Below, piece by piece: positions 293 through 13,766 of a DNA stretch of 64,000 bases. Each line of letters starts with the position of its first letter. Position 1 is the stretch's first letter. The stretch is taken from the NCBI GenBank assembly GCA_021154885.1, contig JAJKHS010000066.1, forward strand, positions 1-64,000. Direction: 5' to 3'. The notes beneath the pieces were generated by a model, which had not been told where the DNA came from, ran no database searches, and was given only the letters and a program-made list of their open reading frames with translations. A program made the position numbers and the translations under genes. Source of the stretch: Thermoanaerobaculum sp. (lineage in GTDB: Bacteria > Acidobacteriota > Thermoanaerobaculia > Multivoradales > UBA5704).

Positions 293-887
<595 letters not shown>

Positions 888-943: not shown

Positions 944-1108
944 TCAGCACCAGCAGGTCGTGTTGGGGCCGAGCGCTGTGTATGTGCACGCCTTGTTGTC
1001 GCTGGAGATGATGCCGCTGCCGGCGGCAGCCTGCTCCAGATTCCGCCCTTCGAGGTATGCGAGGGTCTCCCTCGACAGCGAAAGCTTCCTGGTGCTTGTC
1101 TTCTTCAT
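944..1108 (-). CDS. Class I lanthipeptide-like precursor peptide (orphan)
   Basis: This is a 54-residue peptide. It begins MKKTSTRKLSLSRETLAYLE, which has the KLSLxxETL leader pattern known from class I lanthipeptide precursors of Bacteroidota and Acidobacteriota. A Gly/Ala-rich hinge (residues 27-32, AAAGSG) follows, then a short core rich in Ser, Thr and Cys that ends LGPNTTCWC. The core has Cys 41, 52 and 54 and Ser/Thr at 35, 36, 42, 44, 50 and 51, which suits thioether rings. The start is fixed by AAGGAGAG upstream of ATG 1108. A TATACT box lies about 50 bases upstream. No LanB, LanC, transporter or protease gene is seen in this window, so the modifying enzymes would lie elsewhere. The assignment rests on leader and core pattern only. 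Confidence 0.72.
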   Translation of the reverse strand: MKKTSTRKLSLSRETLAYLEGRNLEQAAAGSGIISSDNKACTYTALGPNTTCWC

Positions 1109-1380: not shown

Positions 1381-1866
1381 ATGGTAAAGCCAGCAAAGAA
1401 CACGATTTGCCTTTGGTACAATGACGACGCCGAGGACGCGGCGCGATTTTACGCCAAGACCTTTCCCGATTCATCCGTTGGCGCGGTGCACCGCGCACCG
1501 GGAGACTTTCCGTCCGGGAAGAAAGGGGATGCGTTGACGGTCGAGTTTACCGTGATGGGGATTCCCTGCCTCGGGCTCAATGGCGGACCCACGTTCAAGC
1601 ACAACGAAGCATTCTCGTTTCAGGTCGCAACCGCCGACCAGGCCGAAACCGATCGTTACTGGAACGCAATCGTCGGCAACGGCGGCCAAGAGAGTGCGTG
1701 CGGCTGGTGCAAGGACAAATGGGGATTGTCCTGGCAGATTACGCCAATCGCTCTGACCCAAGCGATAACCGATCCCGATCCCGCCGCCGCCAAGCGCGCG
1801 TTCGATGCGATGATGCAGATGCAAAAGATCGACGTCGCGGCCATCGAGGCGGCGCGCCGCGGTTGA
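1381..1866 (+). CDS. VOC superfamily protein (PhnB/3-demethylubiquinone methyltransferase-like)
   Basis: This is a 161-residue single-domain vicinal-oxygen-chelate protein of the PhnB-like group, often annotated as 3-demethylubiquinone-9 3-methyltransferase although the activity is generally untested. It starts with ICLWYNDDAEDAARFYAKTF, the usual first beta-alpha unit. Later come GLNGGPTFKHNEAFSFQV and CGWCKDKWGLSWQITP, which are family hallmarks. The start at ATG 1381 has GGAGAAG about seven bases upstream. These proteins typically act as small cytoplasmic dioxygenase-fold or resistance-like proteins, but no substrate can be inferred. No neighbour suggests a pathway. Confidence 0.88.
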   Translation: MVKPAKNTICLWYNDDAEDAARFYAKTFPDSSVGAVHRAPGDFPSGKKGDALTVEFTVMGIPCLGLNGGPTFKHNEAFSFQVATADQAETDRYWNAIVGNGGQESACGWCKDKWGLSWQITPIALTQAITDPDPAAAKRAFDAMMQMQKIDVAAIEAARRG

Positions 1867-2196: not shown

Positions 2197-3066
2197 GTGT
2201 ATCCTCTCCCTCTGGTTACCCTCCTCTGCCCCGTCCGCCACTGCGCCGCACCCCTGGAACGGCAGGCGCGCGCTCTCATCTGTTCCCAGGGGCACTCCTT
2301 CGACCTCGCCCGCAGCGGCTACTGCAATCTGTTGCAGCCGCAGGACCGGCGATCGAGGCAGCCTGGTGACTCGAAGGCTGCCGTCGAGGCCCGCCGGCGG
2401 CTCCTCGACGCGGGGTACGGCGCGGCGCTGCTGCGGGCCTTGGAGGAGGAGATGGACGCGCTGGCCCTGCGCCCCGGCGCCGCCGTGCTCGACGTGGGGT
2501 GCGGCGAGGGATATTACCTGGGAGCGCTGACCGGCAGGGGCGGGATCGAGGCCCACGGGCTGGACCTCTCGGTGCCGGCCGTCGATCTGGCGGCCCGGCG
2601 CCACCCCGGGATCAACTGGGTTGTGGCCAACGCCGACCGCTTCCTCCCTTACGCCGCGGGGTCCTTCGACGTCGTCCTCTCCCTGGATGCCCGCCTCCCG
2701 CCGAGCGAGATCCTGCGGGTGATGGTGCCGGAGGGGCGGTTGCTGGTGGCCGTGCCGGCGCCGGACGACTTGGTGGAGTTGCGGGCGGCCGTGCTCGGCG
2801 AGGGGGTGCTGCGCGACCGGCTGGCGCGGGCCGCCGAGACGCTGGCTGACGACTTCGTGCTGGAGGAGCGGCGAACCGTGCGGCAGACCGCCCGGCTGGA
2901 CGCCGCCGCCCTGCGCGACGCGCTGGCCGCCACCTATCGCGGCGCGCGGGAGAGCCGGCAAGCCCGGCTGGAGGCGATTCCGGAAATGGAGGTGACGCTC
3001 GCCCACGATCTGGCGCGCTTCCGTCCCCTCCCTCATTTCCGCGATACCATCGCCAGCCCGGCATGA
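2197..3066 (+). CDS. rlmA: Putative 23S rRNA (guanine-N1)-methyltransferase, RlmA family
   Basis: The protein (289 residues) matches RlmA, which methylates guanine 745 of 23S rRNA using SAM. Its N-terminal zinc-binding region runs from Cys11 to His33, followed by SFDLARSGYCNLLQPQ. Then comes the diagnostic RSRQPGDSKAAVEARRRLLD segment and the SAM-binding motif LDVGCGEGYYLG near residue 100. An oddity is the first ligand pair, which reads C-x4-C instead of the usual C-x2-C, so zinc binding may differ. It begins with GTG. Its stop overlaps the next gene's start (ATGA at 3063), which suggests co-transcription with the glycosyltransferases, although its rRNA role is unrelated to them. Confidence 0.87.
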   Translation: MYPLPLVTLLCPVRHCAAPLERQARALICSQGHSFDLARSGYCNLLQPQDRRSRQPGDSKAAVEARRRLLDAGYGAALLRALEEEMDALALRPGAAVLDVGCGEGYYLGALTGRGGIEAHGLDLSVPAVDLAARRHPGINWVVANADRFLPYAAGSFDVVLSLDARLPPSEILRVMVPEGRLLVAVPAPDDLVELRAAVLGEGVLRDRLARAAETLADDFVLEERRTVRQTARLDAAALRDALAATYRGARESRQARLEAIPEMEVTLAHDLARFRPLPHFRDTIASPA

Positions 3067-5279
3067 AGCTCCCCTTTCGCCCCCCACCGCTCGACTGGAC
3101 CCGCTCCGGACCCGCCGTCCCCCCCGACGGCCTGCCCGGACCCGTGGACGTCGTCGTCCCCGTCTACGGCGCCGCCGCCGAGTTGGCGGCCTGTCTGGCG
3201 AGCCTCCGGCGCCACACCGATCTCGGGGAGCACCGTCTCGTCCTGGTGGTGGACGGCCCCCAGGAACCGGAGGTCGAGGAGTCGATACGGCGGATGGTGG
3301 AGCGCCCCGACGCCGACTTCGCGGCCAAGGTTCTGGTGCTGCGCAATCCGGCGCGGCAGGGGTTCGTGGCCAGCGTCAACCGCGGCATGGCTGGGTCTGA
3401 CCGCGGTTTCCGGGATATCGTCCTCCTCAACAGCGACACCGAGGTGACGGCCGGCTGGCTGGGCAAGCTGCGCGCGGCCGCCTACTCCGATCCCGCCATC
3501 GCGACGGTGACGCCATTCTCGAACAACGCCACCCTCGTCTCCCTCCCTCGCGGCGCCGAGGTCAACGCCCTGCCGGCCGGCTGGACTCTGGACGGCTTCG
3601 CGGCCCTGGTGGAGCGGGTGGCGGCTCGCGAGCGCCCGCGCCTGCCCACGGGCGTCGGCGTCTGCCTCTACATAAAGAGGAAGGCCCTGGATCGGCTGGG
3701 CCTCTTCGACGAGGCGCGCTTCGGCCTCGGCTATGGCGAGGAGAGCGAGTTCTGCTTCCGCGCCCTGAAGGCGGGCTGGCTCAACGTGCTCGACGATGCC
3801 ACCTTCATCTGGCACGCCGGCCAGCGCAGCTTCGGCGCCTCGCGCGGGCCGCGGGTGCGGGCCGCCCACGGCGCCATGCGACGCCTGCACCCCGAGTACC
3901 TGCCCACCATCGCCCGCTTCCTGCACGACGATCCGCTCGCTCCCGCCCGCGAACGGGTGACGGCCGAGCTGCGGCGCCGGCCGGCCCTGCCGGCATTACC
4001 GGCGCGAGGCCCGCGCCGGGTTGTGCACCTCATCCACGGCTGGCCGCCGTGGAACCACGCCGGCACCGAGGTCTACGCCCGCCGCCTCGCCCTGCGCCAG
4101 GCGGCGCGGCGGGAGGTGGCGGTCTACGCCCGCATCGCCGATCCGGAACGGGAGCTGGGCGAGGCTCTGGAGCTGATGGACGGCGGGGCTCGCGTGCGAC
4201 TGGTGGTGAACAACTTCACCCAGCGCGATCCGCTGTCGCGCAACGCCCTCCACGACCGGCGCCTGGCCGCGGACTTCCGTCGCTTCCTGGCCGAGGCCGG
4301 TCCGGACCTGATCCACGTCCACCATCTCGCCGGTCACGCCGCCACCCTGATGAGCGTCGCGGCCGAGCGGGGCGTGCCCATCCTCTACCAGGTGCAGGAC
4401 TGGTGGGCGCCCTGTGCGCGGGCCAACCTGTTCGACGCCGCGAGGCGGCTCTGCTCCGGCCCCGGCCCCGCCAAGTGCACGGCCTGCCTCCCACTGACCG
4501 GCCTCCCCCCCGCTCCCGTCCTCAACCGCCTCCTGCACGCCGCACGGGCGCGCCTGACGCGGCGGGAGATGCGCCGGGCGGACGCTTTCGTCATGGGCTC
4601 GCAGGCCATCCGCGACAGCTTCCTCGCCCTCGGCTGGCTGCGGCCGGAGGACGATGTCCGAGTCATCCCCTACGGCATCGAGCGGCCCGCGGGTCCGGCG
4701 CCACGGCGGACGGGCATCCCGGATCGTCCGCTGCGTTTCGGCCTCATCGGCTCGCTGCTCCCGCACAAGGGGATCCACCTCGCGGTGGCGGCGTTCCGCG
4801 GCGTCGATCCGGCGCGGGCGACGCTCTGCGTCTGGGGAGATCCTCAGATCTCCCCCGCCTACACGGCCGAGCTGGCGGCCCTCGCTTCCCCGGCCGTGCG
4901 CTTCGCCGGCCGCTTCGACGAGGCGCGCCGGCGCGAGACCTTCGCCGCACTCGACGTGCTGCTCGTCCCCTCCCTGGGACTGGAATCGTTCGGCCTGGTG
5001 GCCCGCGAGGCCCTGGCCGAGGGCGTGCCGGTGCTGGCCAGCCGCCGCGGCGCCCTCGCCGAGCTGTTCGATGGCCCTGGGCCGCCGTGGGGCGCCCTCT
5101 TCGATCCCGAGGACCCGGGGGAGCTCTCGGCGTGGATCGAGGGGCTGACGGCCAGCCCGGAGATCGTCGCCGGCTGGCGCGACGCTCTGCCGGCGGTGAA
5201 GGGGATGGAGGAGCACGCGGAGGAGATCGAAGCGCTCTACGAGCGGCTGGTCACCCCCCGGTCCGAAGAAGATGTTTGA
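3063..5279 (+). CDS. Two-domain glycosyltransferase (GT2-GT4 fusion)
   Basis: This is a 738-residue cytoplasmic fusion of two glycosyltransferases. Residues about 20-290 form a GT-A, family-2 domain: VDVVVPVYGAAAELAACL, the nucleotide-binding LLNSDTEVTAGW near residue 120, and a GYGEESEFCFRALKAGW acceptor-site segment. Residues about 318-735 form a GT-B, family-4 domain: VVHLIHGWPPWNHAGTEVYA at its start, a cysteine cluster (LCSGPGPAKCTACL), and the donor-binding SFGLVAREALAEGVPVLASR near 640. Such fusions usually add two consecutive sugars or cap a growing chain. The gene overlaps rlmA by four bases. Substrates cannot be read from sequence; the locus context says surface polysaccharide. Confidence 0.88.
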   Translation: MKLPFRPPPLDWTRSGPAVPPDGLPGPVDVVVPVYGAAAELAACLASLRRHTDLGEHRLVLVVDGPQEPEVEESIRRMVERPDADFAAKVLVLRNPARQGFVASVNRGMAGSDRGFRDIVLLNSDTEVTAGWLGKLRAAAYSDPAIATVTPFSNNATLVSLPRGAEVNALPAGWTLDGFAALVERVAARERPRLPTGVGVCLYIKRKALDRLGLFDEARFGLGYGEESEFCFRALKAGWLNVLDDATFIWHAGQRSFGASRGPRVRAAHGAMRRLHPEYLPTIARFLHDDPLAPARERVTAELRRRPALPALPARGPRRVVHLIHGWPPWNHAGTEVYARRLALRQAARREVAVYARIADPERELGEALELMDGGARVRLVVNNFTQRDPLSRNALHDRRLAADFRRFLAEAGPDLIHVHHLAGHAATLMSVAAERGVPILYQVQDWWAPCARANLFDAARRLCSGPGPAKCTACLPLTGLPPAPVLNRLLHAARARLTRREMRRADAFVMGSQAIRDSFLALGWLRPEDDVRVIPYGIERPAGPAPRRTGIPDRPLRFGLIGSLLPHKGIHLAVAAFRGVDPARATLCVWGDPQISPAYTAELAALASPAVRFAGRFDEARRRETFAALDVLLVPSLGLESFGLVAREALAEGVPVLASRRGALAELFDGPGPPWGALFDPEDPGELSAWIEGLTASPEIVAGWRDALPAVKGMEEHAEEIEALYERLVTPRSEEDV

Positions 5280-5287
5280 CGGAGGTT

Positions 5288-5354
5288 GTAGGGGCGCAAT
5301 TCATTGCGCCCTGAGGTGATGCCGGCCCTGGGGCGCAATGAATTGCGCCCCTAC
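5288..5354. repeat. Perfect 24-bp inverted repeat (REP-like palindrome)
   Basis: The arms at 5288-5311 and 5331-5354 are exact reverse complements of 24 bases, starting GTAGGGGCGCAATTCATTGC on the left. The spacer is 19 bases. Each arm is itself a near-palindrome (GGGCGCAAT/ATTGCGCCC), so a cruciform or cloverleaf is possible. It fills much of the 163-base gap between two same-strand glycosyltransferase genes. Repeats of this GTAGGGGCGCA type are scattered in many bacterial genomes. Confidence 0.8.
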
Positions 5355-5442
5355 GACGCACGCGGGGCGTTCCGGGTGGCGGACAGGCTGAGGCCGCGAA
5401 CTTTCCAAACACCTCCAAGACATACGTTAGAGTCCCCCTGGA

Positions 5443-8253
5443 ATGAGCTCACCGCTGGCCTGCACCATCATCGCGAACAACTATCTCGCCTACGCCCGGG
5501 CCTTCACCCGTTCGTTCCTGGAGCACCACCCGGACGGCAAGGTCTGCGTGCTCGTGGTCGACCCCCCGCAGCCGGGGCACCGCTATGAGGACGAGCCCTT
5601 CGCCGTCGTCTTCGCCGACCAGCTCGGCATCCCGGGCTTCCCTCACCTCTCGTTCCGCTACTCCATCGTCGAGCTGTCGACGGCGGTCAAGCCCTGGTTC
5701 CTCCGCCATCTGCACCGCACGCTGGGCTGCGACCGGGTCTGCTACTTCGATCCCGACGTCCTGATCTTCGGCGACCTCGGCGAGCTCTACGATTGCCTGG
5801 GCCGGGTGGACGCCGTGCTGACGCCGCACCTGACGGCGCCCATCGACGACTCGCTGGTGCCTGCGGAACGGGAGATCCTGCTGTCGGGCATCTACAACCT
5901 CGGCTTCCTCGGGCTGGCGTTCAACGAGCGCACCCTGCCGTTCCTCGACTGGTGGCGCCAGCGCCTCTACCACTGGTGCCTGCACGAGGTGGACAAGGGG
6001 CTGTTCGTGGACCAGCGCTGGATGGACCTCGCCCCCGCCTATCTGTCGCGGGTGGAGATCCTGCGCGACCCGGGCTACAACGTCGCCTACTGGAACCTGG
6101 TCCACCGCACCCTGGCGCGGCGGGACGGCGCCTGGTGGGTGGGCGACGCGCCCCTGCGCTTCTTCCACTTCAGCGGCTACGACTTCCGGCGGCCGGAGAT
6201 GATCTCGAAGTTCCAGAACCGCTTCACCTTCGCGGACCGGCCGGACGTCGTCCCCCTGTTCGAGACCTACCGCGAGAGCATCCGGCGGCAGGGGCAGGAG
6301 GAGGTCCAGGGCTACCCCTACGGTTACGGCCGCTTCGCCAACGACGTCGCCATCCCGGACCTGGCGCGCCGGGCCCTGCGGCAGGTCGATCCCGAGGCGG
6401 TGCGCTGGCCCGATCCGTTCGTCACGGCGGGGCCCGACAGCTTCTTCGACTGGCTGCGCCAGCCGGTGGACGGCGACGAATCCATCCCGCTGCCCCGGCT
6501 CGCCCTGCTGCTCTGGGATGAACGCGAGGATCTGCAGCGCTGCTTCTCCCGGCCGTGGGCGGCGGACCGCCCGGGCTTCGCCGATTGGCTCCTCCAGACC
6601 ACGTCCAGCGCCGAGCGGATCGATCCGGCGTTCACCGCCGGGCTGGCGCAGGCCCTCCGCCAGCACGCAGCAGGGTCGACGCATCCGCTGACCCGCCTGG
6701 CCTCGCTGGTGGATTCGCCAGCCTTGGCGTCTGGCGAATTGGGAGCGGCGGAGATCGCCTGGCTGACGGCCGACGCCGGCCATGAGCCCCGACGCCGGCC
6801 GCGGGTGCCCCGGCTGGCCCTGGAGATACATCGCCGGCGGGCCGACCTGCTGCGGGCATTCCCCGATCCCCTGGGCGCCGACCGGGCGGCGCTGGCGCTC
6901 TGGTACGTCACCTCCGGCCGGCACGAGTACCAGCTCCCGAAGACCGTGATCAGACCCGTGCTCCGCACCCTGTCGTGGCGCCGGCAGGCCTGGGCGCGAT
7001 TGTGGTGGGAGCGGCAGCGGCGCCGGGCGCGGACCGGCGCACGGCGGGCGGCGGCGCCGGAGAGGCCCGCCGCGGACGAGGCGATCCAGCCAGCGGCGCG
7101 TGCCGCGGGCGCCGCCGAGCCCCTGGGCTTCAACGTCATCGGCTGGTCCGCGGCGCCCACCGGCGTCGGCGAGGCCTGCCGCGGCACCCTGGCCGCCCTG
7201 AAGCAGGCCGGCCTCGGCTCCGCCCTCTGGCCGCTCGACGGCCGGACGGACGGCGCGCCGGGGATGATGGGGACAATGGGGACGATGGCGGCGGGGACGG
7301 CCCACGGCGGGCTCCCCTACGAGGTCAGCCTCTATCACGTCAACGCCGACATGATGGAGACCGTCCAGAGCCGCCTCCCCCGCGGCTTCACCGCCGGGCG
7401 GCACAGCATCGGCTACTGGTTCTGGGAGCTGGCGCACTTCCCCCTGAGCTTCGCCCCGGCCTTCCGCCACGTCGACGAGGTGTGGGCTCCCAGCCGCTTC
7501 TGCCAGCAGGCGTTCCAGTCCATCGCCACGGTCGAGGTACGGCGGGTGCCGCCGTGCGTCGTGCCCGGCACGGCGGCACCCGCCGACCGCGCGGCCCTCG
7601 GCATCGCTCGCGAGAGCTTCCTCTTCTTCTTCGCCTTCGACGCTCTCTCGGTGCCGGAGCGGAAGAACCCGGCCGGGCTGCTCGCCGCCTTCGCCCGGGT
7701 GGCCCGGGAGAGCCGGCGGCCGGTCCACCTGCTGGTGAAGCTGAATCACGCGGAGGCCGAGCCGGTCTTCGTCGCCGAGCTCCAGCGCCGCTGCGCGGGG
7801 TTGCCGGTCACCCTGCTCACCGGCACTCTGAGCCGCGACCAGCTCGACGGCCTGACCGCCGCCTGCGACGCCTACGTCTCCCTCCACCGCTCCGAGGGGC
7901 TGGGCCTGCCCCTCGTCGAGGCCATGTATCGCGGCAAGCCGGTCATCGCCACCGGCTACGGCGGCGTCACCGACTTCCTCGACGAGGAGACCGGCTTCGT
8001 GGTGCGCCACGGCATGACGACCCTCGAACGCCCGCTGGGGCCCTACCCGGCCGGCGCGGTATGGGCCGAGCCGGACGCGGAGCACGCCGCCGCGCTCATG
8101 CTGGCCCTCGCCGCGGCGCCGGAGTCCGCGGCGGCGAAGGCCGAGGCGGCCCGGCGCCGGGTGCTGGAGCTCTATGGACCCGAGGCCGCCGGCCGCCGCC
8201 TGCGCTGCGAGCTGGCGCGCATCCGCGAGATGGGAGACGCCCGCCATGGCTAA
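5443..8253 (+). CDS. Two-domain glycosyltransferase (GT-A plus GT4 fusion)
   Basis: This 936-residue protein starts with a GT-A-type transferase related to GT8-like enzymes: CTIIANNYLAYARAFTRSFL, then CYFDPDVLIFGDLGELYD with the metal-binding DPD near residue 105. Residues about 300-500 hold a helical region with two similar segments (LLLWDEREDLQRCF and ADLLRAFPDPLGADRAALAL). From about 560 a GT4 domain follows: FNVIGWSAAPTGVGEACRG, and the donor site SEGLGLPLVEAMYRGKPVIA near 815. It overlaps the next gene by eight bases. It is probably a polysaccharide chain or decoration enzyme working at the cytoplasmic face of the membrane. The linkage made is unknown. Confidence 0.87.
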   Translation: MSSPLACTIIANNYLAYARAFTRSFLEHHPDGKVCVLVVDPPQPGHRYEDEPFAVVFADQLGIPGFPHLSFRYSIVELSTAVKPWFLRHLHRTLGCDRVCYFDPDVLIFGDLGELYDCLGRVDAVLTPHLTAPIDDSLVPAEREILLSGIYNLGFLGLAFNERTLPFLDWWRQRLYHWCLHEVDKGLFVDQRWMDLAPAYLSRVEILRDPGYNVAYWNLVHRTLARRDGAWWVGDAPLRFFHFSGYDFRRPEMISKFQNRFTFADRPDVVPLFETYRESIRRQGQEEVQGYPYGYGRFANDVAIPDLARRALRQVDPEAVRWPDPFVTAGPDSFFDWLRQPVDGDESIPLPRLALLLWDEREDLQRCFSRPWAADRPGFADWLLQTTSSAERIDPAFTAGLAQALRQHAAGSTHPLTRLASLVDSPALASGELGAAEIAWLTADAGHEPRRRPRVPRLALEIHRRRADLLRAFPDPLGADRAALALWYVTSGRHEYQLPKTVIRPVLRTLSWRRQAWARLWWERQRRRARTGARRAAAPERPAADEAIQPAARAAGAAEPLGFNVIGWSAAPTGVGEACRGTLAALKQAGLGSALWPLDGRTDGAPGMMGTMGTMAAGTAHGGLPYEVSLYHVNADMMETVQSRLPRGFTAGRHSIGYWFWELAHFPLSFAPAFRHVDEVWAPSRFCQQAFQSIATVEVRRVPPCVVPGTAAPADRAALGIARESFLFFFAFDALSVPERKNPAGLLAAFARVARESRRPVHLLVKLNHAEAEPVFVAELQRRCAGLPVTLLTGTLSRDQLDGLTAACDAYVSLHRSEGLGLPLVEAMYRGKPVIATGYGGVTDFLDEETGFVVRHGMTTLERPLGPYPAGAVWAEPDAEHAAALMLALAAAPESAAAKAEAARRRVLELYGPEAAGRRLRCELARIREMGDARHG

Positions 8254-9640
8254 CGGCCTGTCGCTGCGCGCCGCCGGCCGCGTGCTACGCGCCGAGGGGC
8301 TCCCCGCCCTGCGCGACCGCCTCTCCGATCGCTGGCGCGAGCACAGCCGGCGGCTGTCGTTCCACGCCGCCGGCGGGCCGCTGGACCTGCCGGCCAGCCC
8401 GGTGCTCAACCTGCTCTCCACGGCGCCCACGCCGCGCCTGGGGGGTCTGCAGGCCCAGCTCCTCCACCGCCTGGAGAGCGAGGCCGAGCACCGCCCTCTG
8501 GCCCTCCTCTATCCGGAGCCGGGGACTTGGCGGCTGGAGGTGGCCGCCGCCGGCCGGCGCCTCTCCCTCACCCTCGCCGGCGCCGCCCCGCCCTCGCCCG
8601 TGGCCCTCGCCGACCTCGCCTTCGAACAGGCGGTGGTGCGCGCCGCCGGCGAGGTGGGAGCACGGGCCCTGCACGTCGAGGGGCTCGCCGCCCTCCCCCT
8701 GACCTCGCTGCTGGCCCTCCACCGGCAGGGGCTCGCGCTCGTTCTCTCGGTGCACGACTTCAGCCTCTTCTGCCCGCGGCCGCACCTGCTGGAGAGCCCC
8801 GAACTGCGCTTCTGCGGCTACTCGCGTAACCGCGAGCGCTGCGCCCGCTGCCTAGCCGTGGACTGGCCGGTGCCGCCCGGCTTCCAGGAGGAGCGCCGGC
8901 AGCTCGCCCGGGAGCTGCTGATCGCGGCCGCCGCCGTCGTCTACCCCTCCGACTTCCTCCGCCAGCGGCACCTGGAGCTGTTCCCCGGCCTCCCGGCCGA
9001 GCGGCACCGGGTCGTCGAGCCGGCGTCGCCCGTGGCGCCCGCAGTCGCCGGCGCGGCGCTCGCCGGGGTGCCGGCAGGCGCCGGCGAGCGGCCCGTGCGC
9101 CACGTCGCCTACGTCGGCGCCTTCCTGCCGCACAAGGGCGCCCTGGTTTTTGAGGAGGTGATCCGCCGCCTGCCGTCCGCAGTGCTCCCGGAGCTGCGCT
9201 GGAGCGCCTACGGCGGCGGCGACCCCGAGCTGCTGCTGCGGCTGCGGCGGCTCCCCCGGGTGCGGGTGCGCGGCTACTACCGCTCCGGCTCGCTCGTCGA
9301 TCGCCTGCGCCAGGAGGGGGTGGACCTCGCCCTGCTGCTGTCCATCGTGCCCGAGTCGTACAGCCTGGCCCTCTCGGAATGCCTGGCCGCGGGGGTGCCG
9401 GTGGTGGCCTTCGATCACGGCGCCATCGCCGAGCGCCTGCGCCGGCACGGCGGCGGCCTGCTGGTGGAGCCGGCGGCCGGAGCGCAGGGGATCGCCGCGG
9501 CGGTGGCGGCGCGGGTCAACGGGCTGCGCATCCCGGGCGAGGGCCTGTCGCAGGCAGCGCCGGTGACCGGCGGCGCCGCCCTCCCCGGCAATGCGGCGCA
9601 GGCCTTCATCGATCTCTACCGGGAGCTGGGGCTGTGCTGA
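8246..9640 (+). CDS. Glycosyltransferase family 4
   Basis: This is a 464-residue GT-B enzyme. The N-terminal half has the acceptor-side fold with VLSVHDFSLFCPRPHLLESP and a cysteine motif (CGYSRNRERCARCL) like that in the GT4 half of the fusion at 3063. The C-terminal half has VAYVGAFLPHKGALVFEEVI and the donor-binding SYSLALSECLAAGVPVVAFD. The ATG at 8246 overlaps the end of the preceding gene, which indicates translational coupling. It converges on the minus-strand GT2 gene, with the stops about 25 bases apart. The sugar donor is unknown. Confidence 0.87.
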   Translation: MANGLSLRAAGRVLRAEGLPALRDRLSDRWREHSRRLSFHAAGGPLDLPASPVLNLLSTAPTPRLGGLQAQLLHRLESEAEHRPLALLYPEPGTWRLEVAAAGRRLSLTLAGAAPPSPVALADLAFEQAVVRAAGEVGARALHVEGLAALPLTSLLALHRQGLALVLSVHDFSLFCPRPHLLESPELRFCGYSRNRERCARCLAVDWPVPPGFQEERRQLARELLIAAAAVVYPSDFLRQRHLELFPGLPAERHRVVEPASPVAPAVAGAALAGVPAGAGERPVRHVAYVGAFLPHKGALVFEEVIRRLPSAVLPELRWSAYGGGDPELLLRLRRLPRVRVRGYYRSGSLVDRLRQEGVDLALLLSIVPESYSLALSECLAAGVPVVAFDHGAIAERLRRHGGGLLVEPAAGAQGIAAAVAARVNGLRIPGEGLSQAAPVTGGAALPGNAAQAFIDLYRELGLC

Positions 9641-10407
9641 GCCACGGGAGGATCGTCGAAGATGCGGCTGCGGAGCCAGCCCTTCTTCTGCATTTTATAG
9701 CGCAGCAGTACACTGAGGACGGAGAAGCCATAGTGCACGCTGCGCCCGAAGCCGATCTGAGAAGCCTCCGGGAAGTAGCGCGTCTGGATGGGGATCTCCC
9801 GGATGCGCAGGTTCTTCCATACTCCCTGGGCGATAATCTCCGTGTCGAACACGAAGTCGTCCGAGTTGCTCTCCAGGTCGACGGCAAGCAGATAGCGCCG
9901 GGTGTAGGCGCGCAGGCCCGAGTGGTACTCGGAGAGGAAGGCGTAGAAGGTGGCGTTGGCCATGGCGGTGAGGAAGATGTTGGCCAGGTACTTCCACTTC
10001 GGCATGCCGCCCTCGAGCGGCCGGCCGCCCAGCATGCGGCTGCCGAAGACGGCGTCGCACTCGCCGGCGAGCAGCGGCGTCACCAGCTCGGGGATGGTGG
10101 TGGGATCGTACTGATGGTCGGGGTGGACCATCACCACGACGTCCGCGCCGCGGGCCAGGGCCTCGCGGTAGCAGGTCTTCTGGTTGCCGCCATAGCCCCG
10201 GTTGCGGGGGTGGACGAGGACGTGCAGGCCGAGCCCGCGGGCCACCTCCACCGTGCGGTCGCGGCTGGCGTCGTCCACCACCACGATGTCGTCGACCCAG
10301 TCCAGGGGGAGGTCGCGCCAGGTGCGCTCCAGGGTCTGCTCGGCGTTGTAGGCGGGCATCACGACGCAGATCTTCTGGCTGCGCTGCAGGGGATCGATGG
10401 GGGACAT
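9616..10407 (-). CDS. GT2 glycosyltransferase (dolichol-phosphate mannosyltransferase-like)
   Basis: This is a 263-residue family-2 glycosyltransferase of the DPM1-like group, which usually moves a sugar from a nucleotide to a polyprenyl phosphate. Visible motifs are ICVVMPAYNAEQTLERTW, DDIVVVDDASRDRT, the NRGYGGNQKTCYREAL turn, a metal site VMVHPDHQYDP, and a late SDDFVFDTEIIAQ. No membrane segments are present, so it would be a peripheral enzyme. ATG 10407 has GGAGGT five bases upstream. The gene's 3' end overlaps the last 25 bases of the convergent GT4 gene. It could supply polyprenyl-P-sugars to the polytopic transferases in this locus; that link is inference. Confidence 0.87.
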   Translation of the reverse strand: MSPIDPLQRSQKICVVMPAYNAEQTLERTWRDLPLDWVDDIVVVDDASRDRTVEVARGLGLHVLVHPRNRGYGGNQKTCYREALARGADVVVMVHPDHQYDPTTIPELVTPLLAGECDAVFGSRMLGGRPLEGGMPKWKYLANIFLTAMANATFYAFLSEYHSGLRAYTRRYLLAVDLESNSDDFVFDTEIIAQGVWKNLRIREIPIQTRYFPEASQIGFGRSVHYGFSVLSVLLRYKMQKKGWLRSRIFDDPPVAQHSPSSR

Positions 10408-10442
10408 GGGGCGACCTCCGCCGGATTCTACCATCCACGGCC

Positions 10443-11756
10443 ATGAGCAGCTCTTTTTTCTACCCTGTCCGCGCCCATCACCGGGCCCTCACCGCCGCGG
10501 GCGAGGTCGAGCGCCTGGCGCGCGCGGCCGTGCGTGGCCTGCGCACCGGCCGGCTCGGGCGGCGGCTGCCGGCACTCCCCTGGCCGCCGGCGGCGGGCTG
10601 CGAGGCGGCGGACCTGGAAGCGACGCTGGCCGGCTCCAAGCCCCCCATCCTCTACCTGCCGGCCGTGGCCTGGCAGTACCGCTACCAGCGCCCCCAGCAC
10701 CTGGCCGTGGCCCTCGCCCGCAGCGGCCACCCGGTGCTCTACGTCGACGGCTTCCTGCGCAGCCGGCTCCTCCCCGCCCGCCAGCTCACCCACGTCCAAG
10801 GCGGCGTGCACGTGCTGCGGGTGCGGGTGCCGGGACGGCCGGACCCCTACCGCCAGCCCCTGGAGCCCGCAGCCGCGGCGTGGCTCGCCGCAACCATCCT
10901 GGCCGGGCTGCGTCACGAGCGGCCGCTGATGGTGCTGGTGCAGCTCCCCTTCTGGGCCGAGCTGGGATGCGAGCTGGCGCGCCGGCTCGCCGTCCCCCTG
11001 GTCTACGACCGCATCGACCTGCACGCCGGCTTCCCCGGAGTGCCGCCGGGAATCGAGGTCGTGGAGGCGCGGCTCATCCATCAGGCGGACCTGGTGTGCG
11101 CCACCGCCGGCCTGCTGGCGGAGCGGCCGCGGGAGCTCAGTCCCCAGGTCCTGCGGCTGCCCAACGGCGTCGACCTGGAAGCGTTCCCACCACCGGCCGG
11201 CGCTCCCCGCGACCCCGCGGCCCCGGTGCGCGTGGGTTACGTCGGCGCCCTCGGGCCGTGGTTCGACGTCGACGCCGTGGAGAAGGCCGCCCGCGTCCTC
11301 CCCGGCTGGCGCTTCCGCCTCGCCGGCCGGGTGGAGGACTCGGAGATCGCCGCCCTGAGCGCCCTGCCCAACCTGAAAACGGTGGGCGAGATCCCCTTCG
11401 CCGAGGTGCCCGGCTTCCTCGCCGGCCTCGACGTGGCTCTGGTCCCCTTCCGCGACCTCCCCCTCACCCGGGCGGTGGATCCGGTGAAGCTCTACGAGGC
11501 CCTCGCCACCGGCCTGCCGGTGGTGGCCCGCCGGCTGCCGGAGACGGAGCGCTGGAGCGAGCCCCTCGTCTACCTCTACGACGATCCCGAGGGGTTCGTG
11601 CGCCAGCTCCGGCGGGCGGTGGCGGAGCAGACCCCCGGGCTCGCCCGCGAGCGCCGCCGGGCGGCCGAGGGCGAGAGCTGGGACCGCCGCGTCGCGGAGC
11701 TGCTCCAGGCCGTGGGCCCGCTGGCGGCGGGCGGGCGCTCGCCTCACCGGCCGTGA
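10443..11756 (+). CDS. Glycosyltransferase family 4
   Basis: This is a 437-residue GT-B transferase. After a basic N-terminus it shows PPILYLPAVAWQYRYQRPQH, typical of a group of GT4 enzymes with an R-P-Q-H signature. Next come LPNGVDLEAF, the domain-linker VRVGYVGALGPWFDVDAVE, and the donor site VDPVKLYEALATGLPVVARR. It is divergent from the DPM1-like gene, with only 35 bases between starts. The 3' side carries the 19-bp inverted repeat. It probably works on the same polysaccharide as its neighbours; the substrate is not determinable. Confidence 0.86.
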   Translation: MSSSFFYPVRAHHRALTAAGEVERLARAAVRGLRTGRLGRRLPALPWPPAAGCEAADLEATLAGSKPPILYLPAVAWQYRYQRPQHLAVALARSGHPVLYVDGFLRSRLLPARQLTHVQGGVHVLRVRVPGRPDPYRQPLEPAAAAWLAATILAGLRHERPLMVLVQLPFWAELGCELARRLAVPLVYDRIDLHAGFPGVPPGIEVVEARLIHQADLVCATAGLLAERPRELSPQVLRLPNGVDLEAFPPPAGAPRDPAAPVRVGYVGALGPWFDVDAVEKAARVLPGWRFRLAGRVEDSEIAALSALPNLKTVGEIPFAEVPGFLAGLDVALVPFRDLPLTRAVDPVKLYEALATGLPVVARRLPETERWSEPLVYLYDDPEGFVRQLRRAVAEQTPGLARERRRAAEGESWDRRVAELLQAVGPLAAGGRSPHRP

Positions 11757-11772
11757 TGAATCCTCGCTTCTG

Positions 11773-11926
11773 GGAGCCTGCGCGGCAGAAACCCAGAGAC
11801 AGGGACGTAAAGGACACCAGGGACGGCAGGGACCTCAAAGACACCGATGACGATGCCGAGTCCGGCAATTGACTGTCCTTGTTTGTCCTTGACGTCCGTG
11901 CTCGTCTTTTCTGCCGCGCAGGCTCC
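11773..11926. repeat. Inverted repeat with perfect 19-bp ends
   Basis: GGAGCCTGCGCGGCAGAAA at 11773-11791 is the exact reverse complement of 11908-11926. Symmetry continues imperfectly inward: GGACGTAAAGGACAC on the left matches GGACGTCAAGGACAA read from the opposite strand on the right. The middle has short AGGGAC/AGGACA tandem motifs. The element fills the 227-base gap before the fucose synthase gene. It has no coding capacity and no recognisable transposase ends; it may be a MITE-like or transcript-stabilising element. Confidence 0.7.
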
Positions 11927-11983
11927 TAGGCGGCCCGTGCAGCCGCAGACCCCGCCGGCCGTGATAAAGTCCTCATCTTGGAG

Positions 11984-12964
11984 ATGGCGATCGACCTCCC
12001 GCGTTCCGCCCGCATCTACGTCGCCGGCCACCGCGGCCTGGTCGGCGCGGCCATCGTCCGCCGGCTGCGCCAGGAGGGGTTCGGCAACGTCCTCACCGCC
12101 ACCCGCGAGCAGCTCGACCTGCGCGACCAGGCAGCGGTGAACTACTGGTTCCGGGCGAACCGGCCGGAGCACGTCTTCCTGGTGGCCGGCACGGTGGGCG
12201 GCATCCTGGCCAACTCCACCCGCCCGGCGGAGTTCATCTACGACAACCTGATGATCCACGCCACGGTGGTGCACGCCGCCCATCTGCACGGCGTCCGGCG
12301 CCTGCTCTACCTGGGGAGCTCCTGCATCTATCCCCGGGACTGCCCGCAGCCGATCCGCGAGGAGTACCTGCTCACCGGCCTGCTCGAGCCCACCAACGAG
12401 CCCTACGCCATCGCCAAGGTCTCGGGCATCAAGCTCTGCCAGGCCTACCGCCGGCAGTACGGCTGCGACTTCATCTCGGCCATGCCGACCAACCTCTACG
12501 GCCCGCATGACAACTTCGACCTCCAGAGCTCGCACGTGCTGCCGGCGCTGATGCGGAAGTTTCACGACGCCCGGACGGCGGGACGGGACGAGGTCACGAT
12601 CTGGGGCACGGGCTCGCCCCGGCGCGAGTTCCTGCACGTCGACGACCTCGCCGACGCCTGCCTCTTCCTGATGCGCCATTACGACCAGGACGAGCACGTC
12701 AACGTCGGCACCGGCGAGGACCTGAGCATCCGCGAGCTGGCCGAGACCCTCCGCGAGGTGGTGGCACCCGGAGCACGGCTCGTCTTCGACTCCGGGAAGC
12801 CCGACGGCACGCCCCGCAAGCTCCTCGACGTCAGCCGCCTCCATGCCCTCGGCTGGCGCCACCGCATCGGCCTCCGCGAGGGGATCGAGAGCACCTACGA
12901 ATGGTTCCGGCAGAACCACGACCAGCAGGCCCTCCAGACCGGTCTCCACGCCACGACGGCCTGA
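11984..12964 (+). CDS. fcl: GDP-L-fucose synthase
   Basis: The protein is a short-chain dehydrogenase/epimerase that converts GDP-4-keto-6-deoxymannose to GDP-L-fucose with NADPH. It shows the Rossmann motif [18 protein letters not shown] at the N-terminus, [32 protein letters not shown], the catalytic Tyr/Lys pair in [14 protein letters not shown], and [12 protein letters not shown]. Length (326 residues) is typical. I took ATG 11984; a TTG at 11978 is possible, and neither has a strong ribosome binding site. GDP-mannose 4,6-dehydratase, which makes its substrate, is not in the window. Its presence suggests L-fucose in the surface glycan. Confidence 0.93.
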
Positions 12965-12992
12965 GAGTCTCTCCGCCACGACTGCCACGACC

Positions 12993-13766
12993 ATGAGCTG
13001 GTTCGGTCAACGACAAGAGCCGGGCGCCGACGAGCTCGAGGCTCTGCCGCCGTTCCAGTGCACCGAGCAGGAGGTCCAGCGCTGGAACGACGAGTGGCTC
13101 CAGTACCTGCGCAGCGAGTGGGAATTCCAGCTTGCGCCTTACACGGCGTATCCCGACAAGCCGCCGTTGCCCGACTCGCCCCTCGACCTGATGAAGCTCT
13201 CCTTCGGCTTCGGCTGGCCGATCGCCCTCTACTGCGACCGCGAGGCGCTCGAAGGGCGGCGGGTCATGGAGATGGGCTGCGGCTGCGGCAATCTGGGCAA
13301 GCTCATCGCCCGCTACACGGAGTCCTACCTGGGGACCGATTACAGCACCCTGGCGCTGCAGATCGCCCGGCTGGTCTCGCCCCCGAGCTGCACCTACGTG
13401 CACGTGGCCGACCGCGCCGGCCTCACGCCCTTCTTCGGCCGCATCGACACGGTGATCAGCCGGTTTTTCTGGATCCACCAGAACTTCGCCCTGGCCCGCC
13501 AGAACCTGGAATTCCTGGCGCTCTTCCTGAAACCGGGCGGCCGCCTCTACGCCGACTTCTTCTGGCCGGACCCGAAAGTCGAGCAGGCCATCGTCTTCAC
13601 ACCCGACCGTCCGCTCTCGAAGGCCCACCCTTCGGCGACCTTCCGCTACTCCCGCGAGGACGTGGAGCGCCTCGTGGCGGGCCACCCGTTCCGCATCCTG
13701 CGGGAGACGGTGTCGACGGAGATGCAACGGCGCTACGTCGTCCTCGAGAGACGGCCCGCCCCATGA
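12993..13766 (+). CDS. Class I SAM-dependent methyltransferase
   Basis: This 257-residue protein has the Rossmann-like SAM motif RRVMEMGCGCGNLGKLIARY near residue 90 and an acidic post-motif LGTDYSTLAL. A later RFFWIHQNFALARQNLEFLA stretch and a LKPGGRLYADFFWPD segment match the usual motif III region. Its stop overlaps the next start (ATGA at 13763). It sits between fucose synthase and a membrane protein, so sugar O-methylation or another glycan modification is plausible. The acceptor is unknown. Confidence 0.85.
   Translation: MSWFGQRQEPGADELEALPPFQCTEQEVQRWNDEWLQYLRSEWEFQLAPYTAYPDKPPLPDSPLDLMKLSFGFGWPIALYCDREALEGRRVMEMGCGCGNLGKLIARYTESYLGTDYSTLALQIARLVSPPSCTYVHVADRAGLTPFFGRIDTVISRFFWIHQNFALARQNLEFLALFLKPGGRLYADFFWPDPKVEQAIVFTPDRPLSKAHPSATFRYSREDVERLVAGHPFRILRETVSTEMQRRYVVLERRPAP

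Follow-up and report, generated by a model that had tools for sequence, protein, structure and literature searches.

A putative class I lanthipeptide precursor of Thermoanaerobaculum sp. belongs to a leader family dispersed over the genome

Natural production of many lanthipeptides by a single enzyme is a feature of class II enzymes from marine cyanobacteria. In the prochlorosins and synechococsins, very few synthetases are combined with a conserved leader, hypervariable cores and many precursors encoded far from the enzyme (PMC7268733), and up to 79 SyncA substrates are given in PMC9872173. For Bacteroidetes, class I precursors have been described that combine the motif LxLxKx5L with GG ends and go with C39 proteases (Walker et al. 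2020, PMC7268733). The family UBA5704 (Thermoanaerobaculia) is noted for other RiPPs, those of the tha cluster (PMC13083261). In the open-access literature that we searched, class I precursors dispersed in this way are not described. A search combining Acidobacteriota, lanthipeptide, precursor and leader peptide returned no paper, and one on integrons and lanthipeptides returned none that was relevant by title and abstract. The peptide described here adds a member to an established precursor family, and the arrangement over the genome varies a kind of system already known.

The window, that is, the whole stretch of 64,000 nucleotides analyzed, comprises bases 1-64000 of contig C66 (89,218 bases), so the contig begins at window base 1. 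The genome assembly consists of 8.2 Mb on 161 contigs and is 96.6% complete; contigs cited below without a genome number belong to it. The gene for a 54-aa precursor peptide, recognized by ORF reading and by matches to NF038153 and to a leader profile, occupies positions 944-1108 on the minus strand. Its ORF is MKKTSTRKLSLSRETLAYLEGRNLEQAAAGSGIISSDNKACTYTALGPNTTCWC, with the start codon ATG at 1108..1106 and the stop codon TGA at 946..944. The sequence upstream holds a ribosome-binding site, AAGGAGAG, at 1123-1116 (minus strand); GGAG or AGGA occurs close to the start codon in 88% of 120 precursors, compared with 52% of control genes. The leader region (1019-1108, minus strand, with a profile match over the same positions) carries the motif LxLx[K/R]x5L (KLSLSRETLAYL) and has an Ala/Gly hinge at its end. 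It fits the LxLxKx5L motif of class I precursors (PMC7268733), with Arg in place of Lys. The core region (947-1018, minus strand, from an inferred leader/core boundary) contains three Cys and six Ser/Thr past the hinge, enough material for rings, and terminates in NTTCWC. The original prediction of a 54-residue ORF with a ribosome site, a KLSLSRETL leader, an Ala/Gly hinge and a core of this composition is thereby confirmed, and the strand, minus, has been added to it.

A Pfam search of the peptide gave no match. For the check by a class I leader HMM that the original prediction had proposed, NCBIfam NF038153 (class I lanthipeptide leader) gives a borderline match of 20.9 bits (E 2.9e-4), just below its cut-off of 22. 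Leader profile A2, which was built from 46 matches of this genome, gives 47.9 bits (E 1.4e-11 for the whole genome), a value that is partly circular since the window peptide is itself in the profile. The codon-usage log-odds of the gene is -0.7 in frame; the remaining forward frames score -50 and -7.5, and the antisense frames score -20.8, +3.0 and -45.1. Codon usage alone is no proof of coding, and support for the window gene therefore rests on homology.

Such homologues are numerous. NF038153 finds 46 matches at E up to 1 in this genome, and 22 sisters exceed the cut-off. Inspected singly, all 46 proved to be short ORFs with an MKK- or MRK-like start and an LxLx[K/R]ETL block, mostly with a ribosome site. 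Their leader usually ends in GG or GA, and the core that follows has many Cys, Ser and Thr residues; by the cuts used, the 1403 leader residues include one Cys and the 1423 core residues include 244. The sister precursors for which the original prediction had called for a genome search thus number about 50: leader profile A2 has 53 matches, and the 52 listed are spread over 43 sites on 32 contigs. Two of the sisters lie on contig C66 itself, outside the window, at 79.0 and 79.2 kb. The neighbours of the sister loci are unrelated genes that differ from locus to locus, and a LanB or LANC_like gene occurs at a distance of up to 10 kb for only four of the 52 precursors (C75:2273, C1:110762, C143:50519 and C1:32731). 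A promoter motif shared by the regions 5' of the precursors was looked for, and nothing clear emerged. Many precursors, one conserved leader, variable cores and dispersal are found together in this genome. The roughly 50 look-alike genes of this soil-type acidobacterial genome specify different Cys-rich peptides that share one tag and are probably ringed by very few distantly encoded enzymes. One family member, at C88:14985, combines the standard leader with a hydrophobic core devoid of Cys (LPLTVTLVPLATALAIETGILVYHAYKNVTG), in which lanthionine rings are impossible. On C69 (5022-7581), two precursors with the same leader adjoin a RiPP radical SAM C-methyltransferase (TIGR03975, rSAM_ocin_1, 722 bits), which suggests an additional modification as judged from gene order, and a third precursor with a similar core lies 9 kb from the pair.

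Candidate modifying enzymes are encoded on other contigs. The absence of LanB, LanC or transporter genes from the 64 kb, as originally predicted, was borne out and extends to the whole 89-kb contig C66, on which LanB, LANC_like, C39 and LanM searches gave no match. The genome has three LanB N-domains, on C75, C1 and C83. The LanB proteins of C75 and C1 are full-length (1112 and 1074 aa), both contain PF04738 and PF14028, and each is encoded near a LanC. The C75 LanB is related by sequence to the solved structures 5ehk (lantibiotic dehydratase) and 4wd9 (NisB), the C75 LanC matches solved LanC enzymes including NisC, and a sister precursor of the same leader family adjoins this pair. Three LanC proteins of the genome have intact His, WCYG and CHG zinc-ligand motifs. 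On C1 (10763-12333), a solitary LanC gene follows a precursor gene; its product retains the zinc ligands, no LanB is encoded close by, and a kinase/LanC-like protein is encoded 4 kb upstream. C83 encodes the third LanB, which is short and is accompanied by a separate TIGR03891 protein, four tandem precursors and a C39 transporter. At this small LanB-type cluster (8000-12319), the four precursors are near-identical (MTQKPETKSKALNLEVE...), their leader is unrelated and the transporter is 5 kb off. C39 transporters are encoded on C81, C83 and C45, and there are six LanM enzymes in the genome.

Across genomes, the leader family tracks full-length LanB and not LanM. The leader was detected at E up to 1e-3 in 11 of 98 relatives, and all 11 belong to the 13 genomes with a full-length LanB (Fisher P 7e-13; LanB was counted as full-length above about 340 bits, and that of G002 is in two pieces). 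LanM occurs in 27 relatives, and among the 18 of these without a full-length LanB none carries the leader; three genomes (G008, G010 and G087) have leader and LanB with no LanM. Leader and LanB are no more than a few kb apart at G003:C101, G010:C240, G010:C255, G023:C44, G029:C35, G087:C49 and G093:C73. There are six tandem leader copies at G010:C255, and in G010 both short contigs with leader and LanB also carry a C39 transporter. The leader is likewise found near LanB homologues in Paenibacillus, Myxococcus, Corallococcus, Archangium, Streptosporangiaceae and others.

The leader family is expanded in this group. The leader profile has 53 matches in this genome; the two relatives from its genus have 35 and 46, and a genome from another genus of the family has 11. 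In a sample of 247 genomes of the phylum only six match, this genome with at least 32 and the five others with one to three each. Among 121 precursors of three species, 46 pairs show core similarity. The strongest cross-species sister pairs have dN/dS mostly of 0.13-0.38 and cores up to 96% identical, and the low dN/dS and conserved cores of the clearest pairs indicate purifying selection on those peptides. The remaining cores turn over fast: for 37 of 51 precursors of this genome, the core matches nothing in either relative. This holds for the window peptide, for whose core the comparison of the 121 precursors detected no homologue.

An integron attC-like site with a degenerate R'' box, 83 bases long, lies on the plus strand at 1160-1242, about 50 bases 5' of the start codon of the precursor; it scores 79.8 bits with covariance model R1, whose training set includes this copy. 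It shares 96% identity with C59:4926-4992 over 68 nt. The covariance model finds 22 such elements in this genome, 9 in G002 and 2 in G001, and none in G003. The ends of the element family read GCGGCCAAC...GTTGGGC or GCATAAC...GTTATGC, paired ends which we take to be R''/R' boxes as in attC sites. The copy on C59 has a strong fold on its bottom strand (z -3.9), and the window copy, with its degenerate R'' box, folds weakly (z -1.7). On G002:C958 the element is repeated in one direction at intervals of about 390-670 bases. Many attC-like sites are near contig ends or in small same-direction arrays (L279 on G002:C958, L287 on C148, L284 on C116, L289 on C77 and L292 on C42); a position near contig ends would be as expected of unassembled arrays. 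Searches of G000-G003 for a complete integron integrase found none, since TIGR02249 had no match over its cut-off and only a partial one at C75:34070. A candidate integrase at G002:C788 was rejected; by our own reading, it adjoins an apparent IS91-type transposase. The alternative to an integron is attC arrays without an integrase.

At G001:C808 (3160-3523, minus strand) the order is GTTGGGC, a ribosome site, a 60-aa precursor and an attC of matching direction; GTTGGGC precedes the precursor start by some tens of bases, and the precursor lies about 100 bases upstream of attC. This lone precursor reads as a typical integron cassette. Both genes beside the window precursor recur elsewhere in other surroundings. 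The RibD_C (dihydrofolate reductase-like) gene at 295-886 (plus strand, PF01872) is a possible mobile cassette: positions 316-891 share 95% identity with a stretch of G001:C13 that has other sequence on either side and is not followed by a precursor. The 3-dmu-9_3-mt/VOC-family gene at 1381-1866 (plus strand, PF06983) is 84% identical to G003:C124, again with different flanks. The arrangement suggests a cassette origin for the window copy of the precursor, not for the family at large. Integron cassettes were rejected as a general cause of dispersal, with only two of 121 precursors (the window gene and that of G001:C808) within about 100 bases of attC. Strong attC matches were found at only five of the precursor loci searched, and attC sites are only weakly enriched in the vicinity of precursors (P about 0.03). 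Farther along the window, purine/pyrimidine-rich inverted repeats at 2047-2115 and 1960-2110 (CCTCTCTCTCCCGGCGG...), which look like dispersed repeats, lie between the 3-dmu-9/VOC-family gene and an rRNA methyltransferase-like gene, and positions 3063-12994 hold a cluster of glycosyltransferase and sugar-epimerase genes, as for surface polysaccharide.

The window gene is quite probably a class I lanthipeptide precursor of a dispersed set, putatively modified in trans by a few class I enzymes. Several elements of this reading are observed: one leader family with about 50 dispersed sisters, cores that vary freely while keeping Cys and Ser/Thr, pairing with LanB, and purifying selection in the clearest sister pairs. 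The common leader would be bound in trans by the LanB and LanC made from contigs C75 and C1; LanB would dehydrate Ser and Thr of the core using glutamyl-tRNA, and Cys would add to the dehydrated residues to form (methyl)lanthionine rings. The leader would then be removed close to the Ala/Gly hinge, where one of the three C39 transporter-proteases from other contigs may act, and the product would be exported. Few enzymes could yield dozens of different peptides by this route, and our guess is that the mature products are secreted peptides for competition or signalling.

The original prediction offered two places for the enzymes, elsewhere in the genome or in a cluster cut off at the left edge of the window. 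The first alternative is upheld by the NF038153 match, the sisters, the two LanB/LanC pairs on other contigs and the co-occurrence of leader and LanB; the genome does contain LanB and LanC, and homologues of the leader are kept. The second, an ordinary local class I cluster with its LanB, LanC and transporter just left of the contig start, would agree with the position of the precursor 1 kb from that start. It is nevertheless highly improbable, because 48 of the 52 sisters are also without a LanB or LANC_like gene within 10 kb, most of them on contigs readable on both sides; moreover, the RibD_C gene separates the precursor from the contig end, and the two loci for full-length LanB have already been located on other contigs. 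A reading in which class II LanM or radical SAM enzymes, and not LanB, act on the dispersed precursors gains something from the six LanM of the genome, one of them about 4 kb from sister C143:50519, and from the C69 pair beside rSAM_ocin_1 (722 bits), and some sisters may, given the six LanM, be class II substrates. As a general account it is improbable, with the leader missing from the LanM-bearing relatives that have no full-length LanB, present in the three with LanB and no LanM, and adjoining LanB in other phyla; LanM as the general modifier was rejected on the co-occurrence of leader and LanB.

A further question is whether the window copy itself still functions. It could be newly arisen or decaying, in view of its core without homologues in relatives and its neutral codon usage; a non-functional copy, decaying or newly captured within a family that is itself real, would also suit the presence of only three Cys, the hinge AAAGS in place of GG and the RibD_C neighbour without a precursor in G001. 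We regard this as unlikely, although less so than the two preceding readings, since frame and leader motif are intact, the ribosome site is good and fast core turnover is typical of the set (37/51). The dispersed class I set remains our preferred reading. Its fullest form, in which one or two LanB/LanC pairs serve 35-53 dispersed precursors with freely evolving cores in trans as a prochlorosin-like class I system and part of the repertoire, including the window gene and that of G001:C808, is gained and shuffled as attC cassettes, is put forward tentatively and is rather doubtful as a whole.

A class I counterpart of the cyanobacterial systems, with 35-53 leader-matched natural substrates per genome, would test the tolerance of LanB and LanC for different cores. 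Dispersed precursors would also be a source of new ringed peptides missed by cluster-based mining, which scans few genes around LanB/LanC, and the shifting peptide repertoire would make a case for asking its purpose.

The tha cluster RiPPs come from the same bacterial family, which is RiPP-rich like the window host; they belong to class II/III, are clustered and have enzymes of their own, and the passages of PMC13083261 consulted contain no dispersed class I set. The Bacteroidetes class I precursors (NF038153, PMC7268733) resemble the present ones in the LxLx[K/R]x5L leader, the Gly-rich leader end and the Cys/Ser/Thr core, and likewise go with a full-length two-domain LanB and a LanC, with a C39 transporter-protease on the same contig in G010. 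Here, however, Arg is common at the Lys position, the host is an acidobacterium, and dozens of precursors per genome lie nearly all far from LanB/LanC instead of in one cluster. With the prochlorosins (ProcM, SyncM), this set shares few enzymes, many dispersed precursors, one leader and variable cores. The prochlorosins have a class II LanM and a Nif11-type leader, whereas an NF038153-type leader and separate LanB and LanC are found here, and modification in trans is proven for ProcM and predicted for the present set. Being class I by leader family and enzymes, the set is arranged like the prochlorosins and is not a member of that group.
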